DNA of 39,276 nt from a virus: positions 1-39,276 of the IMG/VR virus record IMGVR_UViG_3300031576_000159; one strand, given 5' to 3'. Each line of letters opens with the position of its first letter. Within the stretch, counting starts at the first letter, position 1. The notes beneath the pieces are model-generated. The model was not told the DNA's origin. It did no database searches and was given only the letters and a program-made list of their open reading frames with translations. A program made the position numbers and the translations under genes. This document shows positions 16,334 to 38,505 of this stretch, one piece after another.

Positions 16334-17854
16334 TCACTTCAAGCACGCCGAACTAAACCACACCCGCTCCAGGAACCTGTTCGCTGCGCCTTGCTTTTTG
16401 CCAAGGCTACTCATGCCTCCGCTAGCTTTCCATGCGAAGCATTTCCAGTTGCCAGGCAAAACATGCTCGCCTTCGTATCCGCAAAGCGCAATCCGCAACC
16501 GTGGATCTTCTCCATGTTCAATCGCCCAGGCGCAAACATCCTTCGCAACCTTGAGATCATCCGCAGAGTAGCAGTTCGCATCTCGGTTGGCCTCGGCTGA
16601 ATATGGCGGGTCTAGGAAAATCCCGCATGGAGTTCCGCTTGCAAAGAAGTGCGACAGTGAATCTCCTGAATCTCCACCGCAGATTCGCTTCCAATCCCCG
16701 CAGCAGATTCGGACTCGCTTCAACCTCTCGGATAGAGCCTGCATCCATTTGAGTAATCCTTGCTCACCGCATCCGGCTCGCCCGATGTCGCCGAGGTGGA
16801 CGAGCGTCCGATTGACGCCTTGGCCCTTGTCGCCGAGGTGGACGAGCTGCCGATTGACGCCTCGACCTTTGTTGCCGAGGTGGACGCGCATCCGATTGAC
16901 GCCTTGACCTTTGCTGCCGAGGTGGCCGCGTGTCAGGACGCTTTCTCCTTTTTCGTTCTTCTCGATCCTCCATGGTCCATCACCGCGACAGAATCCACCT
17001 CCGATCCAATGCGCCATTCCCCAAGCCCACCAGCCGGCAATCTTAGGATCGAAGTAATCGGGATCGCCTTCGAGTTTTTCTTGCAGTGTTGCCTTGCGCA
17101 TCACGAGCCATGCGTGGCGCGCGTGAAGGTCGTTCTCGATCACTGGCCAATCGGCATATTGCGCGACTAGATCGGGATCCTTTTTCACGGCACGCCAAAA
17201 ATTCGAGACCATGCCATCCAGGTCATTCACGGTCTCTGTGCCATCGAATTGATTCGGCCTGTTGAGCATCACGGCCCCGGACCCGAAGAACGGTTCGATG
17301 TAGCCTTTTACGTCTCCAAATACCTGCCAGACTTTGCGTGCGATTCTGGATTTCCCCCCGAACCATGGGAATGGGGCCTTGAACAGAAGGTCGAGTTTGT
17401 CTTCTTCTTCCTCGCCATCTTCTTCCTCTGTGATGTCCGAAAGGTTTAGCCTAGCGATCGAGATCGCGATTTCTTCATCGGTGAATCCAGGAATCTTCTC
17501 GCCTTCTAAATTCGGGATCTCGATCGCCGAAAGCTGCCGCAGGGCGTCGTCGAGAAACGCCTGATCCCACTGCGCAAGTTCCGCCGTCCGGTTGTCGGAA
17601 AGCGAATAGGCGCGCGCCTCGGACCCGAGCAAGCTCGTCCGATAGACCGCGATCTCCTTCCAGCCGAGTGCCATCGCGGCCTCCAGGGTCCCATTCCCGG
17701 CGATCACGGTTCCTCCCTCATCCACAACGATCGGCTTCTGCTGGCCGAAACGTCTGAGGGAATCCTTGATGGCTTCGAGGTTTCGCTGGTCGTGGTGGCG
17801 AGCGTTCTTGGGATCCGTCTTCAGTCGGTCGAGGGGGACGATTTCGATTTCCAC
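16334..17854 (-). CDS. ParB-domain / Dam-type adenine methyltransferase fusion
   Basis: 506 residues from GTG 17854, chosen because AAGGAG (17863-17868 on this strand) is well spaced and the protein then begins directly with the ParB-like fold. The N-terminus (VPLDRLKTDPKNARHHD ... VIAGNGTLEAAMALG) is a ParB/sulfiredoxin-like domain. After an acidic linker comes a D12-class N6-adenine methyltransferase: FPWFGGKSRIA, EPFFGSGAV (AdoMet site), and LDPPYS (catalytic DPPY). Between them lies a tandem repeat HLGxKGxGVNR. This fusion is common in phages, where it modifies phage DNA against restriction. The target site is unknown; GATC is the usual target of the class. Confidence 0.93.
   Translation of the reverse strand: MEIEIVPLDRLKTDPKNARHHDQRNLEAIKDSLRRFGQQKPIVVDEGGTVIAGNGTLEAAMALGWKEIAVYRTSLLGSEARAYSLSDNRTAELAQWDQAFLDDALRQLSAIEIPNLEGEKIPGFTDEEIAISIARLNLSDITEEEDGEEEEDKLDLLFKAPFPWFGGKSRIARKVWQVFGDVKGYIEPFFGSGAVMLNRPNQFDGTETVNDLDGMVSNFWRAVKKDPDLVAQYADWPVIENDLHARHAWLVMRKATLQEKLEGDPDYFDPKIAGWWAWGMAHWIGGGFCRGDGPWRIEKNEKGESVLTRGHLGSKGQGVNRMRVHLGNKGRGVNRQLVHLGDKGQGVNRTLVHLGDIGRAGCGEQGLLKWMQALSERLKRVRICCGDWKRICGGDSGDSLSHFFASGTPCGIFLDPPYSAEANRDANCYSADDLKVAKDVCAWAIEHGEDPRLRIALCGYEGEHVLPGNWKCFAWKASGGMSSLGKKQGAANRFLERVWFSSACLK
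16788..16930 (-). repeat. 42-base tandem repeat inside the methyltransferase gene
   Basis: The anchor CCGAGGTG recurs on the plus strand at 16791, 16833, 16875 and 16917, exactly 42 bases apart. It encodes 14-residue units of the form HLG(S/N/D)KG(Q/R)GVNRxxV, three full copies plus a degenerate one. The repeat keeps the frame and lies between the AdoMet and DPPY motifs, in the probable target-recognition region. Confidence 0.9.
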
Positions 17855-17859
17855 CAGGG

Positions 17860-18051
17860 CTACTCCTTCGCCCTTCTCCTGCGTGCCGCCTCCCGAGTGC
17901 GGCAGCGATCCGAGCAGTAGCGCCGATCCGCGCGGCTCGGCCAGAACCACGAGGAGCAGCCGTGGCACCAGTGCCGGGTGCGGTGTTCCGATCCCGGGCG
18001 CTCGCGCAGGACCTCCGCCCAGGCTCTCGCTGGCGTTGACGCAACTTTCAT
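17860..18051 (-). CDS. Small zinc-ribbon protein
   Basis: 63 residues. Two cysteine pairs (C29-x2-C32 and C46-x3-C50, in CHGC ... YCSDRC) form a zinc ribbon, followed by an arginine-rich tail (TREAARRRRAKE). The pattern is typical of small phage or bacterial zinc-ribbon proteins that bind nucleic acid. It is the first gene of a two-gene minus-strand unit; its TAG stop lies within the ribosome site of the methyltransferase, so translation is probably coupled. The ATG at 18051 has no ribosome site and sits directly after a predicted -10 box. Confidence 0.75.
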   Translation of the reverse strand: MKVASTPARAWAEVLRERPGSEHRTRHWCHGCSSWFWPSRADRRYCSDRCRTREAARRRRAKE

Positions 18052-19928: not shown

Positions 19929-22145
19929 ATGAGCGCAAACGGTACGGTTCAGATTGATGGTCTGCTCGGCCAGGTCGTCTGGCGCAAGGAGGGTGGCCGC
20001 TTCGTTATCGCCAGGTTCACTCTTACAGACGGCCGCGCGTGCTCCGTCAAGGGCGATCTTGCAGTCCCCTGCGAGGGCGCACGCTATAAGCTGTCGGGCC
20101 GTTGGTCGGATCACCCGCGCTTCGGCCGCCAGTTCTCTTTTGAATCCTACGAGTCCGAGAAGCCCACGGACGCCGGCGCGGTCCGGGGATATTTAAAGGC
20201 AACGTGCAAGTGGATCGGGCCGCGTGTGGCGGAGGCGATCCTCGCAGCCTTTGGGGAGACGCGGGCGATGGAGATCCTGAAGAGCGATCCGGGGCGAGTC
20301 GCGCGCGAGATTAACGGGATCACGTGGGCGCGTGCGGAGGAGATTCAACGGGTGCTGGTGGACATGGAGGCCGAGGAGAAGGTGGCGCTGGATCTTGGGC
20401 GGATGCTGGGTGGCTTGCGGGTCCCGGAACGTGCGCTCAATCGGATCCGCGCACGCTGGGGGGCGGACGCGCCCGACGTCATCCGCCAGAACCCCTACGT
20501 CCTCGCGCGCGAGATTGCTGGGATCGGGTTCTCCACGGCGGACGCGATCGCCATGCGGCTCCAGTTCGATCCGAAATCCCCGCATCGGATCTGCGCCGGG
20601 ATCCTCTTCACGCTGGAGGAAGCGGCGACGATGGGCCACACGTGCCTCCTGCGGCGGGAACTGCTCGCGGCTGCGCGTGAGATCCTCAAGCTGGGCGAGG
20701 ACCTGGTCGACCGCAACGTCACGGCTTTGGAGGATCTGGAGGAACTGGTCGCTGTGGAGGGGTATGTCTATCTGCCGGACCTCCACGCGGCAGAGGCGGC
20801 CGTGGCGGGGACGCTGGCGGCCATGGTCCAGACCGAGATCTCGGGCGATCCGCTTTCTGCTCCCGAGCGCGTGCGTCTTTCGAACCAGCAGTTCCAAGCT
20901 GTGGAACTGGTGCGCTCGAATCGGGTGGTCGTCGTCAACGGCGCGGCCGGCACTGGGAAGACCTACTCAGTGAGAGCCTTTCTCGACGGCCTGCCGGCGG
21001 GCGTTCGCGTGGCCCTCTGCGCGCCAACGGGGAAGGCGGCGCGCCGGCTGACCGAGAGCTCGGGGTTGGAGGCTACGACGATCCACCGGCTCCTGGAGCC
21101 GCAGGTCGTGGAGAAGGACGAGGGGACGATCACCTTCGCCTTCCAGCGCAACGGCGGCCGGCCGCTGGAGGTTGATGTTCTCGTGGTGGATGAAAGCTCA
21201 ATGCTCGACATTCGGCTCTTCTCCCAACTCCTCGAAGCGCTGAACTCGAAGACGCGCGTCATCCTCGTCGGGGATCCCTACCAGCTTGCCAGCGTCGGGC
21301 CGGGGAAGGTCCTCGCGGACCTCGTTGGGTCCGGCGTGGTCCCTTTCTTCGAACTGCGCGAGATCCACCGCCAGGAGGCGGCCGGCATGATCATCCGCAA
21401 CTGCCACCGCGTGCGCGACGGCCTGCCGATCGAGATCAACAACAGCTCCCCGGATTTTTTCTTCATCGAGTCCGACGATCCCGAGGAGATCCATCGTCAG
21501 GTCGTGAGCCTCGCGGCGGAGAGGTTGCCGAAGCACTTTAACGTGGATCCGATCCGCGATGTGCAGGTGATCACTGCGAACCGCGAGAAGACGCAGCTCG
21601 GCGCGAAGCCGCTGAACGAAAGCCTCCAGGCGCGGTTGAACAAAAACCAGGACGCCGGCTTCGGTCGCTTCCGGCTGGGGGACAAGGTCATCCAGACGCG
21701 CAACGTTTCGCTCGACGGGACTGAGTTCACCAATGGCGGCGAGGAGATGCGCGGGAAGCTCTTCGTTGCCAACGGCGATATCGGGATCGTCATTGGGGTG
21801 GACATCGAGGCCCGGCAATACCTGATCGAGTTCAGCGCGCCGCGGCGGATCGCGACGGCGCCGATGGTGGAAAATGATCTCCAGCTAGCCTACGCCATCA
21901 CCGTGCACAAGTTCCAGGGGAGCGAGGCCCCGGTGGTCGTGGTGCCGATCCACTCGTGCGCGGGTCCCATGCTGCTCCAGCGGAGCTGGCTCTACACGGC
22001 AATGAGTCGCGCGCGGAAGGCGCTGGTTCTTGTCGGCCAGCGCGCGGAGGTGATGAAGGCGATCGGCCGCAATCAGGCGCGAGTCCGGCACTCGCGGCTG
22101 GCGAAGTTGTTGAGGGAGCAATTCGAGAAAATGAAAGCGATCTAA
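19929..22145 (+). CDS. RecD2-like SF1 helicase
   Basis: 738 residues, the normal size of RecD2. An N-terminal OB-like and helix-hairpin-helix region (residues 1-300) is followed by helicase motif I NGAAGTGKTYS near 337-347 and motif II VVDESSM near 417-424. Motif III is VGDPYQLASVGPG, and the C-terminal motifs are TVHKFQGSE and YTAMSRARKALVLVG. It unwinds DNA 5' to 3' and probably acts in replication or repair of phage DNA. It follows the SSB-like gene in the same operon, with a weak ribosome site (GAGGA). Confidence 0.95.
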   Translation: MSANGTVQIDGLLGQVVWRKEGGRFVIARFTLTDGRACSVKGDLAVPCEGARYKLSGRWSDHPRFGRQFSFESYESEKPTDAGAVRGYLKATCKWIGPRVAEAILAAFGETRAMEILKSDPGRVAREINGITWARAEEIQRVLVDMEAEEKVALDLGRMLGGLRVPERALNRIRARWGADAPDVIRQNPYVLAREIAGIGFSTADAIAMRLQFDPKSPHRICAGILFTLEEAATMGHTCLLRRELLAAAREILKLGEDLVDRNVTALEDLEELVAVEGYVYLPDLHAAEAAVAGTLAAMVQTEISGDPLSAPERVRLSNQQFQAVELVRSNRVVVVNGAAGTGKTYSVRAFLDGLPAGVRVALCAPTGKAARRLTESSGLEATTIHRLLEPQVVEKDEGTITFAFQRNGGRPLEVDVLVVDESSMLDIRLFSQLLEALNSKTRVILVGDPYQLASVGPGKVLADLVGSGVVPFFELREIHRQEAAGMIIRNCHRVRDGLPIEINNSSPDFFFIESDDPEEIHRQVVSLAAERLPKHFNVDPIRDVQVITANREKTQLGAKPLNESLQARLNKNQDAGFGRFRLGDKVIQTRNVSLDGTEFTNGGEEMRGKLFVANGDIGIVIGVDIEARQYLIEFSAPRRIATAPMVENDLQLAYAITVHKFQGSEAPVVVVPIHSCAGPMLLQRSWLYTAMSRARKALVLVGQRAEVMKAIGRNQARVRHSRLAKLLREQFEKMKAI

Positions 22146-22210: not shown

Positions 22211-22726
22211 GTGGTCGTGGAGAGTCGGCCTTGCCCGCCGGTGGTGGTTGACGATCGAGAGCGCCTGCCCTATGAGTTTCCCTGTTGGGTACCGGGGCGG
22301 CTTCCGACCGGCGACTACTCGCTGGTTGGTTGCGAATCACAGGTCGCCGTCGAGCGCAAAAGCAAAGAGGACGCCTATCGATCGCTCGGCTCCGATCGCG
22401 ACCGCTTCGAGGCTGAGGTGAAACGACTCTCCGAGTTCCGCTACCCGGCGCTGGTGATCGAGTCCAGCTTGCCCGACTTCCTTTGCCCTCCTCCATTTTC
22501 AGCGATGCACCCACGTGCGGCGATTGCGACGCTGCTGGCGTGGAGCGTCCGCTATCGGCTGCCGATCTTTTTCGCCGGCGATCGTTGGCACGCGCAGGCG
22601 CTCGTTCGAAATGTTCTGCGATTTTTTTGGCGGTACCACGGTGGGGGATCTGTTGTGGATGGAGGAGACCTTGAGGCCGATCGAGATCGTTCTGGAGAAG
22701 TTGACGGGTGCGGAGAAGAACGGTAA
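22211..22726 (+). CDS. ERCC4-type nuclease
   Basis: 171 residues from GTG. The N-terminal half carries the ERCC4 core: VDDRE (13-17), PTGDYSL (32-38) and VERKS (47-51), matching the GDxxxxERKxxxD arrangement of the XPF/Mus81 nuclease family. It would cut branched or flapped DNA during replication or recombination. The last 40 residues read out of a region that overlaps the primase gene and look less conserved. GTG codons at 22211 and 22217 are both possible starts after AGGAGAGAAG. Confidence 0.85.
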   Translation: MVVESRPCPPVVVDDRERLPYEFPCWVPGRLPTGDYSLVGCESQVAVERKSKEDAYRSLGSDRDRFEAEVKRLSEFRYPALVIESSLPDFLCPPPFSAMHPRAAIATLLAWSVRYRLPIFFAGDRWHAQALVRNVLRFFWRYHGGGSVVDGGDLEADRDRSGEVDGCGEER

Positions 22727-25277
22727 GGGCTGGCGCGCGCTCTGTCCGGCGCACCCCGACCGAACGCCTTCTCTTCACGTCACTGAGGCGGTTGATGGGA
22801 AGGTCCTCGTGAAATGCTTCGCCGGATGCTCGGCGCGGCAGATCGTGAACGCCATCGGCCTTCCCATGTCGGCGCTGTTCCCCGAACGGCCGGAGTCCGA
22901 GACGAAGGGGAAGAAGAAGCGCTACCCGGTGTTGCCGCCCGGACCACATCTCTGTCGCGTCTTCAGTTCGCGGATCGAGGGGGGGCCAGAGAGCGGGTAC
23001 TCGATCAACCTCCAGCTCATCGCGGTTGCCGGCGCGCAGAAGGGAGTCCGCGTTTTCGACCACTTCAAGATCTCGTCATCGGAGGACCTCTCGCGGCTGA
23101 AGGGGTTCCTCGGCGCGGTGGGGATCCAAGCGCGCGAGGACGTGAACCTCGAACCCGAGCAGATAGCCGGCCGGCTGCTCGTAGTATCAACGACTACCGT
23201 CGATGTTGTTGCTGGCGAGGATGGGGAGAAAAAACACCGGGTGAACTTTGGCGGTTACTCGATCCCGCCGGAGGGGATGATCACCACCTATCCCTACCGT
23301 GACGAGGCCGGCGAGCTACTCTTCGAGGTCCTGCGGCTGGTGCCGAAGGAGTTCCGCCAGCGCCGCCCGAACGGCCGCGGCGGCTGGACGTGGGATCTGG
23401 AGGGGACGCGGCGGGTCCTCTACCGGCTGCCGGAGTTGCGTGCCGCCTCCCGCGCCATGACCGTCTTCCTCGTCGAGGGGGAGAAGGATGTGGCGACGGT
23501 GGAGGACCTCGGCTGCCTCGCGACGACAGCGCCGCAGGGCGCGTCGGGGTGGGGGAAGCTGGACAAGACATGCCTGGAGGTCCTGCGAGGCCAGCGCGTG
23601 GTGGTGGTGCCCGACGCCGACCAGGCAGGGGTGGAGTACCTCGCTGCTGCGGCAAAGGACTTGGCGGGGGTGGCTGATTCGGTTGGGGTCCTCGACGTGC
23701 GCGCGCTTCCGCTGCCCGAGGGGACCGTTGCTGCCGTCAAGGACGTGTCCGACTGGCGCGCTGCGTGGATCACCGCCGGCGTGGACCCGCCGTCCTTACC
23801 CGAGGTTGCCGCGCGTATCGCTCTCACCCCAGAAGGCTACCTCGCCACGGTTGCGCCAACTCTTCCGGGCGGGAAGGGCCCCGCCTCGATGCCAGCCCGC
23901 CCGCAGATCACGAACTACCGCGAGGAGGAGATCGAGACGCCGGAAGGCGTGAAGAAGGCGAAGCTGGCCATCCCGATTACGGCGATCGTTCAGGATGTCC
24001 TCTGCATCTGCGGAGGCTGGCCGAAACGGATCGGCCGCGAGCTTTTCTTTGATAACGCCGGCGCGATCGAAATCCTTCCGGGTGACCCGGAGTTCCTCGC
24101 CTTCGTCTTGGCGCGCGCGGAACTCGTCTGGGCGGGCGGGGTGGACGCCGAGGGGGTTTGCCTCACGACCAAGCCCGAGGTGCGCGCCGGCGTCGTTCAC
24201 TCATGCGAACAGGTGGACGACGTATCCGAGTTTCCACTCTTCCCCGAGCCGGCCGGGATCTACATCACCAGCCGGTTTACGAAGTCCGAACGAACCGACG
24301 GTTCTTGCCTCACGGATTTTCTCAAGCGCTTCCGGCCGGCGACCGAGGCGGACGAGGCTTTGATCTGGGCGCTGGCGTTGACGCCGTTCTGGGGGGGCCC
24401 CCCTGGGGAACGGCCGCTGATTGTGATCACCGGCCCGGAGGGCCAGGGAGTCCAGGAGACGGGGAAGTCCACACTGGCGGATCTGGTGGGACTCGTGGCG
24501 GGGGGCGCTTTCCGCGTCCGTCTCGGCCGCGGGGACTTTGGCGAGGACGTGGCAAAACAGATCCTTGGCGACGCCGCAATCCGATATCGGGTAATGCTTT
24601 TCGACAACTTATCCGGCCTTACCGAGTCCGCCGAACTGGCGGACCTCATCACAGCCCCCGTGATCCATGGCCGCCCAGCCTACGGCCGCCAGCGCGCGCG
24701 CGCGAACCGGCTGACGTGGACGGCGACCTCGGTGTCCCCGGAATTCGACGAGGACCTTTCTTCCCGTTGCGTCGTGATCCACCTTCTCGCGCCGGCGAAT
24801 GGCGCGGACCCAGAGTTCCGGGCGGTCGGCGCGGCTTTCGTCATGGAGAACCACGCGCGGCTAATTTCGGACGCTCTGTCAATCCTCGGGGGGGAGAAGC
24901 GGTTTATCAGCGAGCGCTACTCCCGATTCCCTCTCTGGGATCGGGAGGTTCTCGGTTGCCATGAGGCGGCAAACGAGGCGTTGAAGGTGCGTGGCGAGCG
25001 CGTGAGGGCCTGCGACTCCCGTAGCGAGGACGTAGCCATCCTCGGATCCCACCTCAAGGCAAAACACCCGATAGGAACCACCGAGCTAACCCCATCCGCG
25101 CTGGCCGAGGCATGGAATGAATCCACCGGCCGGAAGACATCCTCTTCTTGGGTTTGCCGCCGGATTCGGATGGCCATCCGAGCTGGCAAAATCGGGCCTT
25201 GGCTTCAAGCGAAATGGGCTTCTGGAACCAAAGGAAGTCCTTGGATCTTCGATCCACATGAGCTACCTACCCACTGA
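22659..25277 (+). CDS. Primase-helicase (zinc finger, TOPRIM and ATPase domains)
   Basis: 872 residues from ATG 22659; the frame is open further upstream, but that part has no conserved character. A CHC2-type zinc motif (CPAHPDRTPSLHV near 29-41, then CFAGC near 53-57) is followed by a TOPRIM core (FLVEGEKDV near 269-277 and VPDADQAG near 316-323). A C-terminal ATPase carries GVQETGKST near 597-605 and MLFDNLSG. It would lay down primers and unwind DNA at the phage origin. It overlaps the ERCC4 gene by 68 bases. The end of the gene overlaps the first iteron-like copy of the repeat region downstream. Confidence 0.9.
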   Translation: MEETLRPIEIVLEKLTGAEKNGKGWRALCPAHPDRTPSLHVTEAVDGKVLVKCFAGCSARQIVNAIGLPMSALFPERPESETKGKKKRYPVLPPGPHLCRVFSSRIEGGPESGYSINLQLIAVAGAQKGVRVFDHFKISSSEDLSRLKGFLGAVGIQAREDVNLEPEQIAGRLLVVSTTTVDVVAGEDGEKKHRVNFGGYSIPPEGMITTYPYRDEAGELLFEVLRLVPKEFRQRRPNGRGGWTWDLEGTRRVLYRLPELRAASRAMTVFLVEGEKDVATVEDLGCLATTAPQGASGWGKLDKTCLEVLRGQRVVVVPDADQAGVEYLAAAAKDLAGVADSVGVLDVRALPLPEGTVAAVKDVSDWRAAWITAGVDPPSLPEVAARIALTPEGYLATVAPTLPGGKGPASMPARPQITNYREEEIETPEGVKKAKLAIPITAIVQDVLCICGGWPKRIGRELFFDNAGAIEILPGDPEFLAFVLARAELVWAGGVDAEGVCLTTKPEVRAGVVHSCEQVDDVSEFPLFPEPAGIYITSRFTKSERTDGSCLTDFLKRFRPATEADEALIWALALTPFWGGPPGERPLIVITGPEGQGVQETGKSTLADLVGLVAGGAFRVRLGRGDFGEDVAKQILGDAAIRYRVMLFDNLSGLTESAELADLITAPVIHGRPAYGRQRARANRLTWTATSVSPEFDEDLSSRCVVIHLLAPANGADPEFRAVGAAFVMENHARLISDALSILGGEKRFISERYSRFPLWDREVLGCHEAANEALKVRGERVRACDSRSEDVAILGSHLKAKHPIGTTELTPSALAEAWNESTGRKTSSSWVCRRIRMAIRAGKIGPWLQAKWASGTKGSPWIFDPHELPTH

Positions 25278-25282
25278 CTTAT
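25263..25282 (-). repeat. Degenerate iteron copy at the end of the primase gene
   Basis: CTACCTACCCACTGACTTAT resembles the minus-orientation iteron ACCTACCCATCGACTCAT found at 25396-25413, with a few differences. It overlaps the primase stop codon (TGA 25275-25277). It extends the iteron array leftward, making four copies in about 250 bases. Confidence 0.5.
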
Positions 25283-25314
25283 TTTTGAAAGATTCTCAAA
25301 GCATGTACACCTCT

Positions 25315-25459
25315 CGTACGTGCGTACTAGGCTCTATACCTCTACTAGGCGCGAGGCGAAATGAGTCGATGGGTAGGTTGGTTGGTAGGTTGTTTACCTA
25401 CCCATCGACTCATACTAGTCATTTCCTAGTATAGAGTATAGAGCCATTACGCACGTACG
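25315..25459. repeat. Large nested inverted repeat, candidate origin
   Basis: Four paired blocks nest within 145 bases. CGTACGTGCGTA (25315-25326) pairs with TACGCACGTACG (25448-25459). GGCTCTATAC (25330-25339) pairs with GTATAGAGCC (25436-25445). TACTAGG (25343-25349) pairs with CCTAGTA (25425-25431). ATGAGTCGATGGGTAGGT (25361-25378) pairs with ACCTACCCATCGACTCAT (25396-25413) around a 17-base loop. That is 47 base pairs in all. It is AT-richer than its surroundings and directly follows the primase-helicase gene, so a replication origin is the leading idea. Confidence 0.85.
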
Positions 25460-25491
25460 CTAGTGGTATATGGATTAGGAATGTTACGAGA

Positions 25492-25511
25492 ATGAGTCGA
25501 TGGGTAGGTAG
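25492..25511 (+). repeat. Third strong copy of the iteron
   Basis: ATGAGTCGATGGGTAGGTAG repeats, base for base over 18 positions, the left arm at 25361-25378. It lies outside the hairpin in direct orientation. Repeated copies in both orientations fit a binding site for an initiator or regulator. Confidence 0.8.
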
Positions 25512-25788
25512 ATCAGAGATGCGGGGACACCCCGCACCCCGTCACGTCATCTGCGCCTGCGTCGAGGGGGGTTGGCGGGGCGGCGGTTCGGGCGGATCGG
25601 CGAGCTGGTGCGGCGGGAAGGCGCGGTCGGCGGAAAGTAAAAGTATACGCTTCGGCGGGAAGGCCTCCGGCGGGCGTGCGGTGGTGGGGCGGCTGGTTGG
25701 GTGGCGCTGGACGCCAGACTGGCCGGTTGCGGCGGCGTGGTGCGGCGGTCGGCCGGCGCGATTTTGAGAAAAAATTGAAGGAGGCAAC
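25512..25788. other. GC-rich non-coding stretch after the iterons
   Basis: About 275 bases without a convincing gene. A short perfect hairpin TGCGGGG-ACA-CCCCGCA lies at about 25518-25534, without a T run. The sequence is strongly G-rich on the plus strand, with GGCGGGAAGGC present twice. The plus-frame open from 25492 to 25767 encodes only low-complexity Gly/Arg/Trp sequence with no ribosome site, so I do not call it a gene. Confidence 0.5.
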
Positions 25789-26107: not shown

Positions 26108-26136
26108 TTGACATCCGAAGGAAGAAAGCGTATACT
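26108..26136 (+). promoter_or_regulatory. Strong sigma70-type promoter
   Basis: Perfect TTGACA (26108-26113), 17-base spacer, TATACT (26131-26136). This is the closest match to consensus in the window. Predicted start is around 26143-26144, while the ATG of the next gene is at 26145. The mRNA would be leaderless or nearly so; no ribosome site is present. Confidence 0.8.
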
Positions 26137-30024: not shown

Positions 30025-30482
30025 AAAAACATTACGGAATCCCACGGTCGGCCGTTGTCGCTGAAGTGAATCGGCGCAAGCGCGAAGGCCCGTCTATCTG
30101 TAGTGTGAATGGTTGCGGCAATCCACGCTTCGGCCGGAAGCATCGGATGTGGGTCCACCATCAACTATCGTGGTCAAGGGATCGAGCCTATTACTGCCAC
30201 TTTCACCGTGGCGAGGTCTGCTATATGTGCGGGGGCAGGGCGCTCAGGTTCCCAAGCCATGGGCGGCCCGATGGGGAGTTGCGTCCGCTCTGCCGTAATT
30301 GTCGGCTCTCGCTTTATGAGTCGTGGCTTGGAGAACTCAGGCTTGCGAAGATCGAGCGCCGGATTGCCATGGAGAAGAAGCGCAAAGTCTGGCGATTGAA
30401 ACGGGAGGAGAAGGAACGGAAGGCCGAGGAGCGGCGGTTGAAGAAGGTGCAGAAAGAAGGAGGTTTACATGGAAACGGATAA
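30021..30482 (+). CDS. Zinc-finger protein coupled to tasA
   Basis: 153 residues from ATG 30021 (4-base overlap with the previous gene). Two zinc sites are suggested: C27-x4-C32 with C59/H60/H62, and C67-x2-C70 with C91-x2-C94 (CYMCG ... LCRNCR), the latter resembling an HNH/treble-clef core. H46-H47 lie between the cysteine pairs, but no standard catalytic HNH triad can be assigned. The C-terminal 50 residues are a Lys/Arg/Glu-rich helix. The gene overlaps tasA by 14 bases, so the products are made together. It is a candidate partner or separated effector of the Tas protein; that is inference. Confidence 0.7.
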   Translation: MKKHYGIPRSAVVAEVNRRKREGPSICSVNGCGNPRFGRKHRMWVHHQLSWSRDRAYYCHFHRGEVCYMCGGRALRFPSHGRPDGELRPLCRNCRLSLYESWLGELRLAKIERRIAMEKKRKVWRLKREEKERKAEERRLKKVQKEGGLHGNG

Positions 30483-31542
30483 CAACGGCGACCTATGCAA
30501 GGTGGTGGTGAAGGATTCCAGGCGAATGACGCGCCTCCGAACGCTCAAACGGAAACCCATTGAAGGGCCGATCAATTTCGATGCCCTGAGACTTTTGGTG
30601 CGGAGCTTCTACGACATCCAGAAGCTCAGAATTTCGTACGTGCTGCGGCTCCAGGATCTCGACCGCCGGCAAATCATCTCGAAGGACTTGGCCGAGGAAT
30701 ACTATGGCCTGCCGTTCCAACACCTGGAGGGAGCAGAAGCAGAGCTACTTCGGACGGTGGCGGACATGGTCGCCGGGCATCCATTCGCCGTCTGGGCGAT
30801 GCAGGTGCGCGGGATCGCGGAGACCTTGGCAGGGGCCTTCCTCGCAGAGGTTGGGGCGGATCGTCAGGTGCGGATCGCGCCGTCCGGAGATCTGGCGGAC
30901 CTTGCCGCAACGGCCGGAATCTGCCATGAGACGTGGCTTACCCACCCGGACCGGATCCCACTGGCAAAAGGGACCAGCCGGAATCGAGACGGAAAGGACC
31001 AGGAGCCGGAAGAGGACTCAGAAACCGAGGATCTCGGGAAGAGCGTCGATGCTCGGGATCGGTTCTACGCGAAGCTCTCGAAGCTCTGGCACGGCAACAA
31101 GCGCGAGATGGTTGGGATTCTTGAGGAACGACGCGGGATCGCGTGTTTCCCCACTGTTTCTACTCTCTGGGCCTACTCCGGGCTTCACGTGGTCCAGGAC
31201 CCGAAAAGCGGGCTCATGGTGGCTCCCCGCCGGAGGAAGGGAGAGAAGCTCCGGGTGAACTCCTTCCTCCAAACCCTAGCCTACAAGATGAGCGACTCAT
31301 GGATCAAGTGTGGCGGATACTTCCGGGTGGTCTACGACCGCGAGAAGGCGCGGCAGCTTGCTACCGGGTTGCCGAAGTGGCACGCGGACATGAGGGCGAG
31401 AAGGAAGGCGAGCAAGCTTTTCTTTGCGCTGGCGTGGGAGGTCTGGCGCAAGGCGGAGGGCTTCCCGACTCGGGTTGGGTACTGCTTCGAGAAGCTGGGC
31501 CACACGGACCAGGTGCGGCCGGAGGAAGTGATAGAGAAATAG
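30469..31542 (+). CDS. tasA: TasA-like protein (IS110/Nop-related, no nuclease domain)
   Basis: 357 residues with an excellent ribosome site AAGGAGGT. The protein carries IS110-transposase/Nop-like features: VRGIAETLAGAFLAEVG (113-129), FPTVSTLWAYSGLH (227-240), RRRKGEKLRVNSFLQTLAYKMS (254-275, abbreviated here), and a C-terminal KASKLFFALAWEVWRKAEGFPTR pattern near 313-335. A charged low-complexity loop lies at 170-195. No RuvC or HNH catalytic motif is seen, so it resembles TasA, the Nop-only class of TIGR-Tas proteins that bind short guide RNAs with two spacers. It is directly followed by the matching repeat array, whose first degenerate repeat overlaps the TAG stop. The name is assigned from context and pattern, not from a database search. 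Confidence 0.85.
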   Translation: METDNNGDLCKVVVKDSRRMTRLRTLKRKPIEGPINFDALRLLVRSFYDIQKLRISYVLRLQDLDRRQIISKDLAEEYYGLPFQHLEGAEAELLRTVADMVAGHPFAVWAMQVRGIAETLAGAFLAEVGADRQVRIAPSGDLADLAATAGICHETWLTHPDRIPLAKGTSRNRDGKDQEPEEDSETEDLGKSVDARDRFYAKLSKLWHGNKREMVGILEERRGIACFPTVSTLWAYSGLHVVQDPKSGLMVAPRRRKGEKLRVNSFLQTLAYKMSDSWIKCGGYFRVVYDREKARQLATGLPKWHADMRARRKASKLFFALAWEVWRKAEGFPTRVGYCFEKLGHTDQVRPEEVIEK

Positions 31543-31679
31543 AGCCAGGCTTCCACAGAGATCCACGCCGGAGTAGCGAGCCATCGGATTCAAGAGAACC
31601 ATGAAGCCATAGCGAGCCTGCCCAAGTTAGAGAACCATCTTCATCGAGCGAGCCAATCGGGCCAAAGAGACCCACAGGT

Positions 31680-31735
31680 ACGTAGCGAGTCAACTCAGAT
31701 TAGAGATCCATGCGATCGTAGCGAGCCTGCGAGCC
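31680..31735 (+). repeat. Duplicated block within the array, left copy
   Basis: 56 bases identical to 31941-31996 (offset 261). The block includes the spacers AACTCAGATT and TGCGATCGT. It shows that the array has grown or rearranged by internal duplication. Confidence 0.9.
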
Positions 31736-31940
31736 ACAGAGATCCACTCGGCTGTAGCGAGCCTTGCCATGATAGAGAACCGTAATCCAGAAGCGAGCCT
31801 GAGGGCCAGAGAGAACCCAGTGTGTGCAGCGAGCCTTACATACATAGAGAACCATCACGGCGAAGCGAGCCAATCGAGCCAAATCAACCTAGAGAACCAT
31901 CTGGGTCGAGCGAGCCTTTGATCTAAAGAGACCCACGAGA

Positions 31941-31996
31941 ACGTAGCGAGTCAACTCAGATTAGAGATCCATGCGATCGTAGCGAGCCTGCGAGCC
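31941..31996 (+). repeat. Duplicated block within the array, right copy
   Basis: Identical to 31680-31735. The spacers just outside differ (CAGGTACGT against CGAGAACGT share only the last four bases and scattered positions), so the edges have diverged or the recombination ended there. Confidence 0.9.
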
Positions 31997-32238
31997 CAAG
32001 AGAACCAAAGTTGCGTAGCGAGCCTGATTAGATTAGAGAACCATTGCGTAGAAGCGAGCCACTACGGGCCAGAGAACCAAGGGACGTGAGCGAGCCACCC
32101 TCGAACAGAGATCCAGGCAACGGAAGCGAGTCGCTGCGGACGAGAGAACCATACAAGTTCAGCGAGCTATCCTCGGCAAGAGATCCACCGCGATTGAGCG
32201 AGCCGTTCGGCGACAGAGATCCACGCAGCTCAAGCGCG

Positions 32239-32268
32239 AGGCCCCCATCCTCGGGGGCCTTTTTATTT
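32239..32268 (+). terminator. Intrinsic terminator ending the array transcript
   Basis: AGGCCCCC (32239-32246) pairs perfectly with GGGGGCCT (32253-32260) around ATCCTC, followed by TTTTATTT. It begins inside the last degenerate repeat, so the array and terminator are one transcription unit, read on the plus strand with tasA. Confidence 0.92.
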
Positions 32269-37376: not shown

Positions 37377-37630
37377 TGGGCAAGTTCACGGACCGCCGGT
37401 CGCTTGGGTTCGAGTTCACAACCTCCGAATCTGGCACTGTCGATGGGGAGACACTTCAGTGTTGCCACTGCGGAGGCCATTTCACGGTCAACCCTGGAAG
37501 CAAGAAGCGCCGAGGATTTTGCATGAACTGCGGCGCGGTGACGTGCGGGAAGGAGAAGTGCGCCCAGTGTACGCCTCTTGAGAAGAAGCTCGACCTTTAC
37601 GAGGGCGGGAAACTTGACATCTTGAGATGA
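37376..37630 (+). CDS. Zinc-finger protein in the structural block
   Basis: 84 residues. Four CxxC pairs are visible: CCHCG near 30, CMNCG near 49, then CGKEKCAQC near 57-65. They form one or two zinc sites. The ending PLEKKLDLYEGGKLDILR is a pattern I recall from phage zinc-finger proteins encoded next to virion genes. A role as structural or assembly factor is likely. It overlaps neighbours at both ends (TAATG and ATGA). Confidence 0.75.
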   Translation: MGKFTDRRSLGFEFTTSESGTVDGETLQCCHCGGHFTVNPGSKKRRGFCMNCGAVTCGKEKCAQCTPLEKKLDLYEGGKLDILR

Positions 37631-38505
37631 ACTGGAATGTCTGGCAGTATCCTCAGAAGGTTGAACCGATCAGGTCGGCATTCCCCGAGGCCGACCTTGA
37701 TTGGCTCGCAATTTATCCCGATCAGGTCTTCGACTTCGAGCGACTTCGTGAGTACCCACAAGCCATTCGAGGTCAGGATCCAAGCGAGATCACCGTCTCT
37801 GAATCAATCACGCTCGATAAGTGGCTTCCGATCTTCTCCGATCAGGTCTTCGACTTCGAGCGACTTCGTGAGCACCAACAGGCCGTTCGAGGGCCGGATC
37901 CGAGCGAGCTTCCGGCAGAGGCCATCACTCTCGACAAGTGGCTCCCGTCATTCCCCGACCAGGTCTTCGAGATCGAGAGGTTTGGTGAATACCAAGCGTT
38001 CTTCAAGGACTATCTTACCGAGGTCGACAGGATTCAAAACGGAGAGATCAGCCCGAGGGCGATCTATCCGGATGAGACGCGAGATGCCGGCTGGCTTCTC
38101 GAATATCCACAGGCAGTTAGGGGGCCGGATCCGAGCGAGATTGGCATCGGGCCTGAAGTCATCACCATCGACAAGTGGCTTCCGTCCTTCCCGGATCAGG
38201 TCTTCGAGATCGCAAGAGCACATGAATACCAGGCGTTCTTCCGTGTTGGATTCGAGCAGGAGTTCTTCGTCGATCCGGTTGGATGGGCCTCGATCTATCA
38301 AGACGTGGTTCTTGGGACTGAGGGGCTCCATGATTATCCGCAATCGGTTCGGGGGCCGGACCCAAGCGAGCTGCCGGCAGGAATTGTTTTCCAGTCGGGA
38401 CTTGATCACTGGCTGGTCCCCTCCTCGGGTAAGGATTGGCAAGTTCCTTCCTCTGGAAAGGATTGGCAGGTTCCTTCTTCTGGCAAGGACTGGAATCTGG
38501 AGTAA
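37627..38505 (+). CDS. Tandem-repeat protein with DKWLPxFPDQVF units
   Basis: 292 residues. A unit of about 40 residues recurs, centred on (D)xWLPxFPDQVF(D/E)xxRLxEYQ followed by (Q)AVRGPDPSE(L/I). At least five variants are seen (DQVFDFERLREYPQAIRG, DQVFDFERLREHQQAVRG, DQVFEIERFGEYQAF, DETRDAGWLLEYPQ, DQVFEIARAHEYQAF). The C-terminus carries three near-identical VPSSGKDWQ repeats. The function is unknown; a repetitive adaptor or fibre-like surface protein fits. The 33-base DNA match between 37718 and 37838 areas shows recent duplication. Confidence 0.7.
   Translation: MNWNVWQYPQKVEPIRSAFPEADLDWLAIYPDQVFDFERLREYPQAIRGQDPSEITVSESITLDKWLPIFSDQVFDFERLREHQQAVRGPDPSELPAEAITLDKWLPSFPDQVFEIERFGEYQAFFKDYLTEVDRIQNGEISPRAIYPDETRDAGWLLEYPQAVRGPDPSEIGIGPEVITIDKWLPSFPDQVFEIARAHEYQAFFRVGFEQEFFVDPVGWASIYQDVVLGTEGLHDYPQSVRGPDPSELPAGIVFQSGLDHWLVPSSGKDWQVPSSGKDWQVPSSGKDWNLE

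Follow-up and report, generated by a model that had tools for sequence, protein, structure and literature searches.

A nested inverted repeat of 257 bp directly behind a primase-helicase gene is, with a probability that we put at roughly 0.8, the iteron replication origin (or main initiation site) of the phage that carries it, and would be served by a self-loading primase-helicase. The element is read as an origin because it combines the iterons of SaPI/PICI origins with the stem-loop of plasmid pRN1. Direct observations are the anatomy of the element, its non-random character, its position, and the fact that inverted iteron clusters turn up repeatedly behind primase-helicase genes related to this one.

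The window, i.e. the whole stretch of DNA that was analysed, measures 39,276 bp, carries a 150-bp terminal repeat and looks like the complete genome of a tailed phage. All of its replication genes point the same way; their products are a Sak4-like protein, a single-strand binding protein, a RecD2-like helicase and the primase-helicase. The features referred to below are as follows.

19929-22145, + strand: RecD2-like helicase, the syntenic neighbour in relatives.
22515-25277, + strand: primase-helicase of 920 residues and putative initiator; its start codon is the one given in the ORF list.
25259-25515, no strand: whole imperfect inverted repeat or nested hairpin, the candidate replication origin (from repeat search, folding, alignment of the halves and a self-complementarity scan).
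25265-25282, - strand: iteron A, a degenerate copy with 3 mismatches that lies across the primase stop and belongs to the outer stem.
25283-25360, + strand: left inter-iteron arm, AT-richer, with the alternating purine-pyrimidine run CGTACGTGCGTAC at 25315-25327.
25361-25378, + strand: iteron B, exact, left arm of the inner stem.
25379-25395, + strand: loop of the inner stem, 17 nt, with a fifth core GGTAGGT at 25384-25390.
25396-25413, - strand: iteron C, exact, right arm of the inner stem.
25414-25491, + strand: right inter-iteron arm, an imperfect complement of the left arm, with TACGCACGTACGC at 25448-25460.
25492-25509, + strand: iteron D, exact, in the outer stem as the partner of A.

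The primase-helicase has a CHC2 zinc ribbon (residues 58-107), a TOPRIM-type primase part (approximately 255-417), a P-loop ATPase (approximately 636-660) and a C-terminal domain that extends to residue 920. AlphaFold models of residues 471-920 (pLDDT 47.9) and of the last 125 residues (pLDDT 50.6) were both of low confidence, give no evidence of a winged helix in the C-terminal part and were kept out of the fold searches, and a profile search of solved structures gave no credible match.

Several other loci in the genome were also noted. The principal long gene of the minus strand (16334-17968) encodes a ParB-like N-terminal domain fused to a D12-class adenine methyltransferase. An ORF at 30469-31542 (+) matches the NCBIfam family NF052498, 'TIGR-Tas system RNA-guided endonuclease', above cut-off (the system is described in PMC12045711), and is followed at 31539-32240 by an array in which AGAGA(A/T/C)CC and GCGAG(C/T)C alternate, with 10-11-nt spacers and a period of 36 bp, and then by a hairpin plus T-run. 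Two 83-nt stretches of this array (31664-31746 and 31925-32007), 261 bp apart, are 93% identical, which suggests a recent internal duplication of spacers. Finally, the ORF region at 37627-38505 contains degenerate tandem repeats of approximately 115-120 bp and, towards its end, three repeats of 27 bp.

The element is built around an 18-bp unit, ATGAGTCGATGGGTAGGT, of which exact copies form the two inner-stem arms (25361+ and 25396-) and a third lies in the outer stem (25492+). When up to three mismatches are allowed, four matches are found (25265-, 25361+, 25396- and 25492+) where 0.04 are expected. Two of the units thus point each way, in addition to the fifth core, and all five occurrences of GGTAGGT in the genome fall within the element. 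A 17-18 base unit in two orientations inside the structure, with one copy outside and a degenerate one at the primase stop, had already been described in a first-pass annotation of the sequence, and all of these parts are present beside the primase-helicase gene where it had placed them. The structure exceeds the size given there, 47 base pairs nested in 145 bases: a gapped alignment of the two halves pairs 92 of approximately 128 positions over 257 bp. The outer arms (25259-25326 and 25448-25515) are 75% complementary, and the inner stem (25361-25378 and 25396-25413) consists of 18 bp with 100% complementarity closed by the 17-nt loop. Folding of the DNA between 25200 and 25560 gave one nested hairpin of -85.7 kcal/mol with a z of -10.2, shuffled sequences reaching -42.6 +/- 4.2. 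A sliding 300-nt scan for self-complementarity gave 154 for the element, against 76 for the next unrelated region and a median of 32; the element, first described as the largest symmetrical structure in the window, is its most strongly self-complementary stretch. A telomere-resolution (protelomerase) palindrome was set aside, by inference from the asymmetric 17-nt loop at the centre.

The GC content of the element is 44.7%, with 63.1% and 70.7% in its flanks, although no distinct AT-rich block separates the inner iterons. The region had been called AT-richer and non-coding; the former holds, and the latter fails at the left end, where the element shares the last 19 bp of the primase-helicase ORF and iteron A overlaps the last codons and the stop (25275-25277). 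The two alternating tracts, CGTACGTGCGTAC and TACGCACGTACGC, are of the CG/CA type also seen in the cluster centres of several relatives. A strong match to a sigma-70-type promoter, TTGACA-17-TATACT (11/12), lies 3' of the element at 26108-26136 (+).

A position directly after a long gene would also suit a transcription terminator, possibly acting on both strands, or an RNA hairpin at the 3' end of the primase operon, in either case unconnected with replication. An RNA hairpin is in line with the mismatches between the arms, which on the + strand of the window favour G-T over A-C by 13 to 3 (p 0.02). However, across 26 similar elements this bias is gone (115 G-T vs 135 A-C), and the lack of a family-wide RNA-hairpin pattern fits a role as double-stranded binding sites. 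The short GC-rich hairpin with a T-run that marks an intrinsic terminator is not seen here: the stem is followed by GATCAGAGATG, which contains no T-run, the terminator scan was negative at the element, and it gives no support to the two-way terminator listed in the first-pass annotation. Nothing in Rfam scored above threshold. Moreover, a terminator does not require an 18-bp word repeated in both orientations, and other long genes seldom have such clusters behind them (see below). Taken together, a terminator or RNA hairpin seems quite improbable.

DNA relatives of the region around the element could not be detected. Searches of 50,697 phage records and of 72,556 plasmids found no copy of the element, and there is no second copy in the genome. 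The inner-hairpin pattern gave 0 matches among viral contigs, and the only viral contig to match the exact 18-mer (L005) carries a lone copy in an AT-rich stretch lacking repeats, which we consider a chance match. These searches bear on a further explanation, namely that a small MITE-like mobile element, consisting of two units of approximately 114 bp with 18-bp terminal inverted repeats, has been inserted where the primase gene ends. Each half of the element does measure approximately 114 bp and carries inverted copies of the unit at its ends. Yet a mobile element is very hard to reconcile with the absence of any further copy in the genome, the phage records or the plasmids and of any true match among viral contigs; no clear target-site duplication was evident by eye, and relatives fill the same position with clusters of unrelated sequence.

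Since DNA relatives were lacking, neighbouring proteins were used for the searches. Single-protein searches with the primase and with the RecD2-like helicase returned no close relatives; relatives of TerL were at no more than about 50%, and a matching primase was missing from those that were searched. Distant phages were reached by aligning the RecD2-like helicase, and a few of them also match the primase-helicase. In L106, L108, L109 and L111 inverted clusters at the primase-helicase 3' end are the strongest repeats of the stretch that was scanned, and a search for inverted and direct pairs of 9-mers revealed the same in L103, L107, L097, L105 and L150; in all nine the order RecD2, primase-helicase and inverted-iteron cluster recurs. 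Their iteron words are unrelated (GCGGGGACC, GGTGAACAT, GTGGGGACGT, GCGGGACGT, GGGGACCTT, TCGGGAACGT, GCAGAAGTT, GGTGACAGAT and others); the L108 word, GGTGAACAT, is one that we take to be close to the P4 iteron. Rhizobium phage RHph_Y3_1 has a comparable layout behind its annotated primase/helicase (9-mer pair scan), and so does Salinibacter phage M8CR30-2 behind its annotated primase (direct reading). Typically, blocks in one orientation stand opposite blocks in the other around a centre, which in several relatives contains alternating CG/CA tracts, and in some relatives the cluster lies within the last part of the coding frame.

The closest full-length relative of the primase, in L197, is 32% identical over residues 259-912 (E 5e-81 in a two-sequence comparison), a match that covers the primase and helicase parts and reaches the C-terminal region. 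Located 24 nt after its last sense codon is an inverted repeat with 32-nt arms and a word of its own, GCGTCCTA, with further copies. Place and design are thus shared with the window element, and the word is different. In two loci (L136 and L270) the iterons are tandem and few are inverted, and four among the nearest by the C-terminal part of the primase (L145, L148, L273 and L290) showed no cluster on inspection; the design is therefore frequent and not universal. Origin-like clusters were also noted in L204 (12343-12620) and L222 (12322-12600), where long TATATA and CACACA tracts, candidates for melting sites, lie between facing blocks of iterons.

The frequency of such clusters was assessed in 80 loci, 75 of them usable, that were gathered by alignment of the N-terminal half of the primase. 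As this half alone was the query, the repeats played no part in the choice of loci. The top window of inverted pairs lay within approximately 650 bp of the primase 3' end in 34 of the 75 loci, where 7.8 are expected from length (p 1e-14), and about half of the loci lack such a cluster by this measure. At least 8 inverted pairs were present at 20/75 primase ends and at 10/337 control ends (p 1e-9), the controls being other long ORFs and short-loop hairpins being excluded. In a second set of 31 loci, largely bacterial genome contigs, the corresponding figures were 6/31 and 2/85 (p 0.005), and the simpler top-window test was weaker (6/31 vs 2.6 expected). All of these p-values are optimistic because loci within a set are partly related, and the effect size is the firmer statement.

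Repressors and ParB proteins also bind inverted repeat words, and the phage encodes the ParB-like/methyltransferase protein at 16334-17968. The cluster might accordingly be a set of regulator binding sites, i.e. an operator, a partition locus or a replication-control locus, and not the origin itself. We give this only a slim chance: what recurs goes with the primase-helicase gene, the basis on which the loci were selected, and the ParB-like gene is encoded on the opposite strand at a distance of 7 kb.

GC skew and third-position skew were dominated by coding direction and gave no origin signal; the skew analysis suggested in the first-pass annotation showed no change at the element and is uninformative. 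Conservation, also suggested there, was found for position and architecture and not for the repeat word. The absence of a skew change together with a lack of conservation of the repeat unit had been proposed as evidence against an origin, which is misleading given that position and architecture are conserved instead. The two remaining options, an origin and a primase-loading hairpin, merge into the best-supported explanation in view of the analogous clusters behind related primase-helicase genes and of the experimental work on origins with this layout in SaPI/PICI elements and pRN1 (PMC7581432, PMC6092414, PMC4234260).

We infer that the protein binds the repeats, that replication begins at the element and that the hairpin form may matter; as the iteron word is not conserved, recognition cannot be demonstrated by sequence. 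In the proposed mechanism the 18-bp units would act as iterons and be bound by the primase-helicase encoded upstream, through a DNA-binding part of its own that is probably the C-terminal domain. Two helicase rings may assemble on the iterons, and we propose that they face each other because the iterons do. The primase-helicase would then melt the AT-richer DNA between and beside the iterons and prime both strands for other polymerases. The long complementarity could form a cruciform in supercoiled DNA, or a hairpin in single-stranded DNA, and may help loading.

A bolder version, which we regard as rather doubtful, holds that the palindrome itself is functional: the initiator would recognise a cruciform with iteron stems, supercoiling would switch origin firing, the pRN1 and SaPI modes would be joined in one element, and uncultured phages with TOPRIM primase-helicases, a large group, would generally use origins of this type.

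With the iteron origin as the preferred reading, an orphan phage gains a concrete pair of origin and initiator that is open to testing. The survey suggests that in many uncultured phages the origin may be readable as a cluster of opposed repeats behind the primase-helicase gene, despite a lineage-specific word. The fixed position and fast-changing words provide pairs for studying the co-evolution and compatibility of initiators and origins.

Three known systems are comparable. The P4 alpha protein combines a TOPRIM-type primase and a helicase in one chain and binds short origin repeats (cited in PMC4234260). The window protein likewise has both parts in one chain, in resemblance to alpha with its ori/crr, but the window element has no sequence match in phage records. 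In pRN1 a 100-nt stem-loop 3' of the primase-helicase gene is required for replication and, alone or moved, restores it; its sequence varies between plasmids, and a similar stem-loop was seen in Bordetella phage BIP-1 (PMC4234260). Shared with both is a large stem-loop just 3' of a multidomain primase-helicase gene, with structure kept and sequence not. However, the pRN1 initiator is an archaeo-eukaryotic prim-pol with an SF3 helicase and a winged-helix domain, and its stem-loop is approximately 100 nt long and free of iterons, whereas the primase part in the window is of the CHC2/TOPRIM type and the element spans 257 nt with iterons. PICI origins have two sets of iterons around an AT-rich region 3' of the initiator, as tested for EcCICFT073 (PMC6092414), and in the rep-ori of SaPIbov1, SaPI5 and EcCICFT073 the iteron sets differ between elements (PMC6092414, PMC7581432). 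The window element is similar in lying directly 3' of the putative initiator gene and in having short iterons in two facing sets. It differs in that a single long palindrome holds the iterons in its stems, in that the primase part is fused to the helicase, as it is in some PICIs too, and in that its carrier is a complete-looking tailed phage and not a satellite. Most likely, then, the element joins the origin type already known from phage satellites, here in a tailed phage and with a word of its own.
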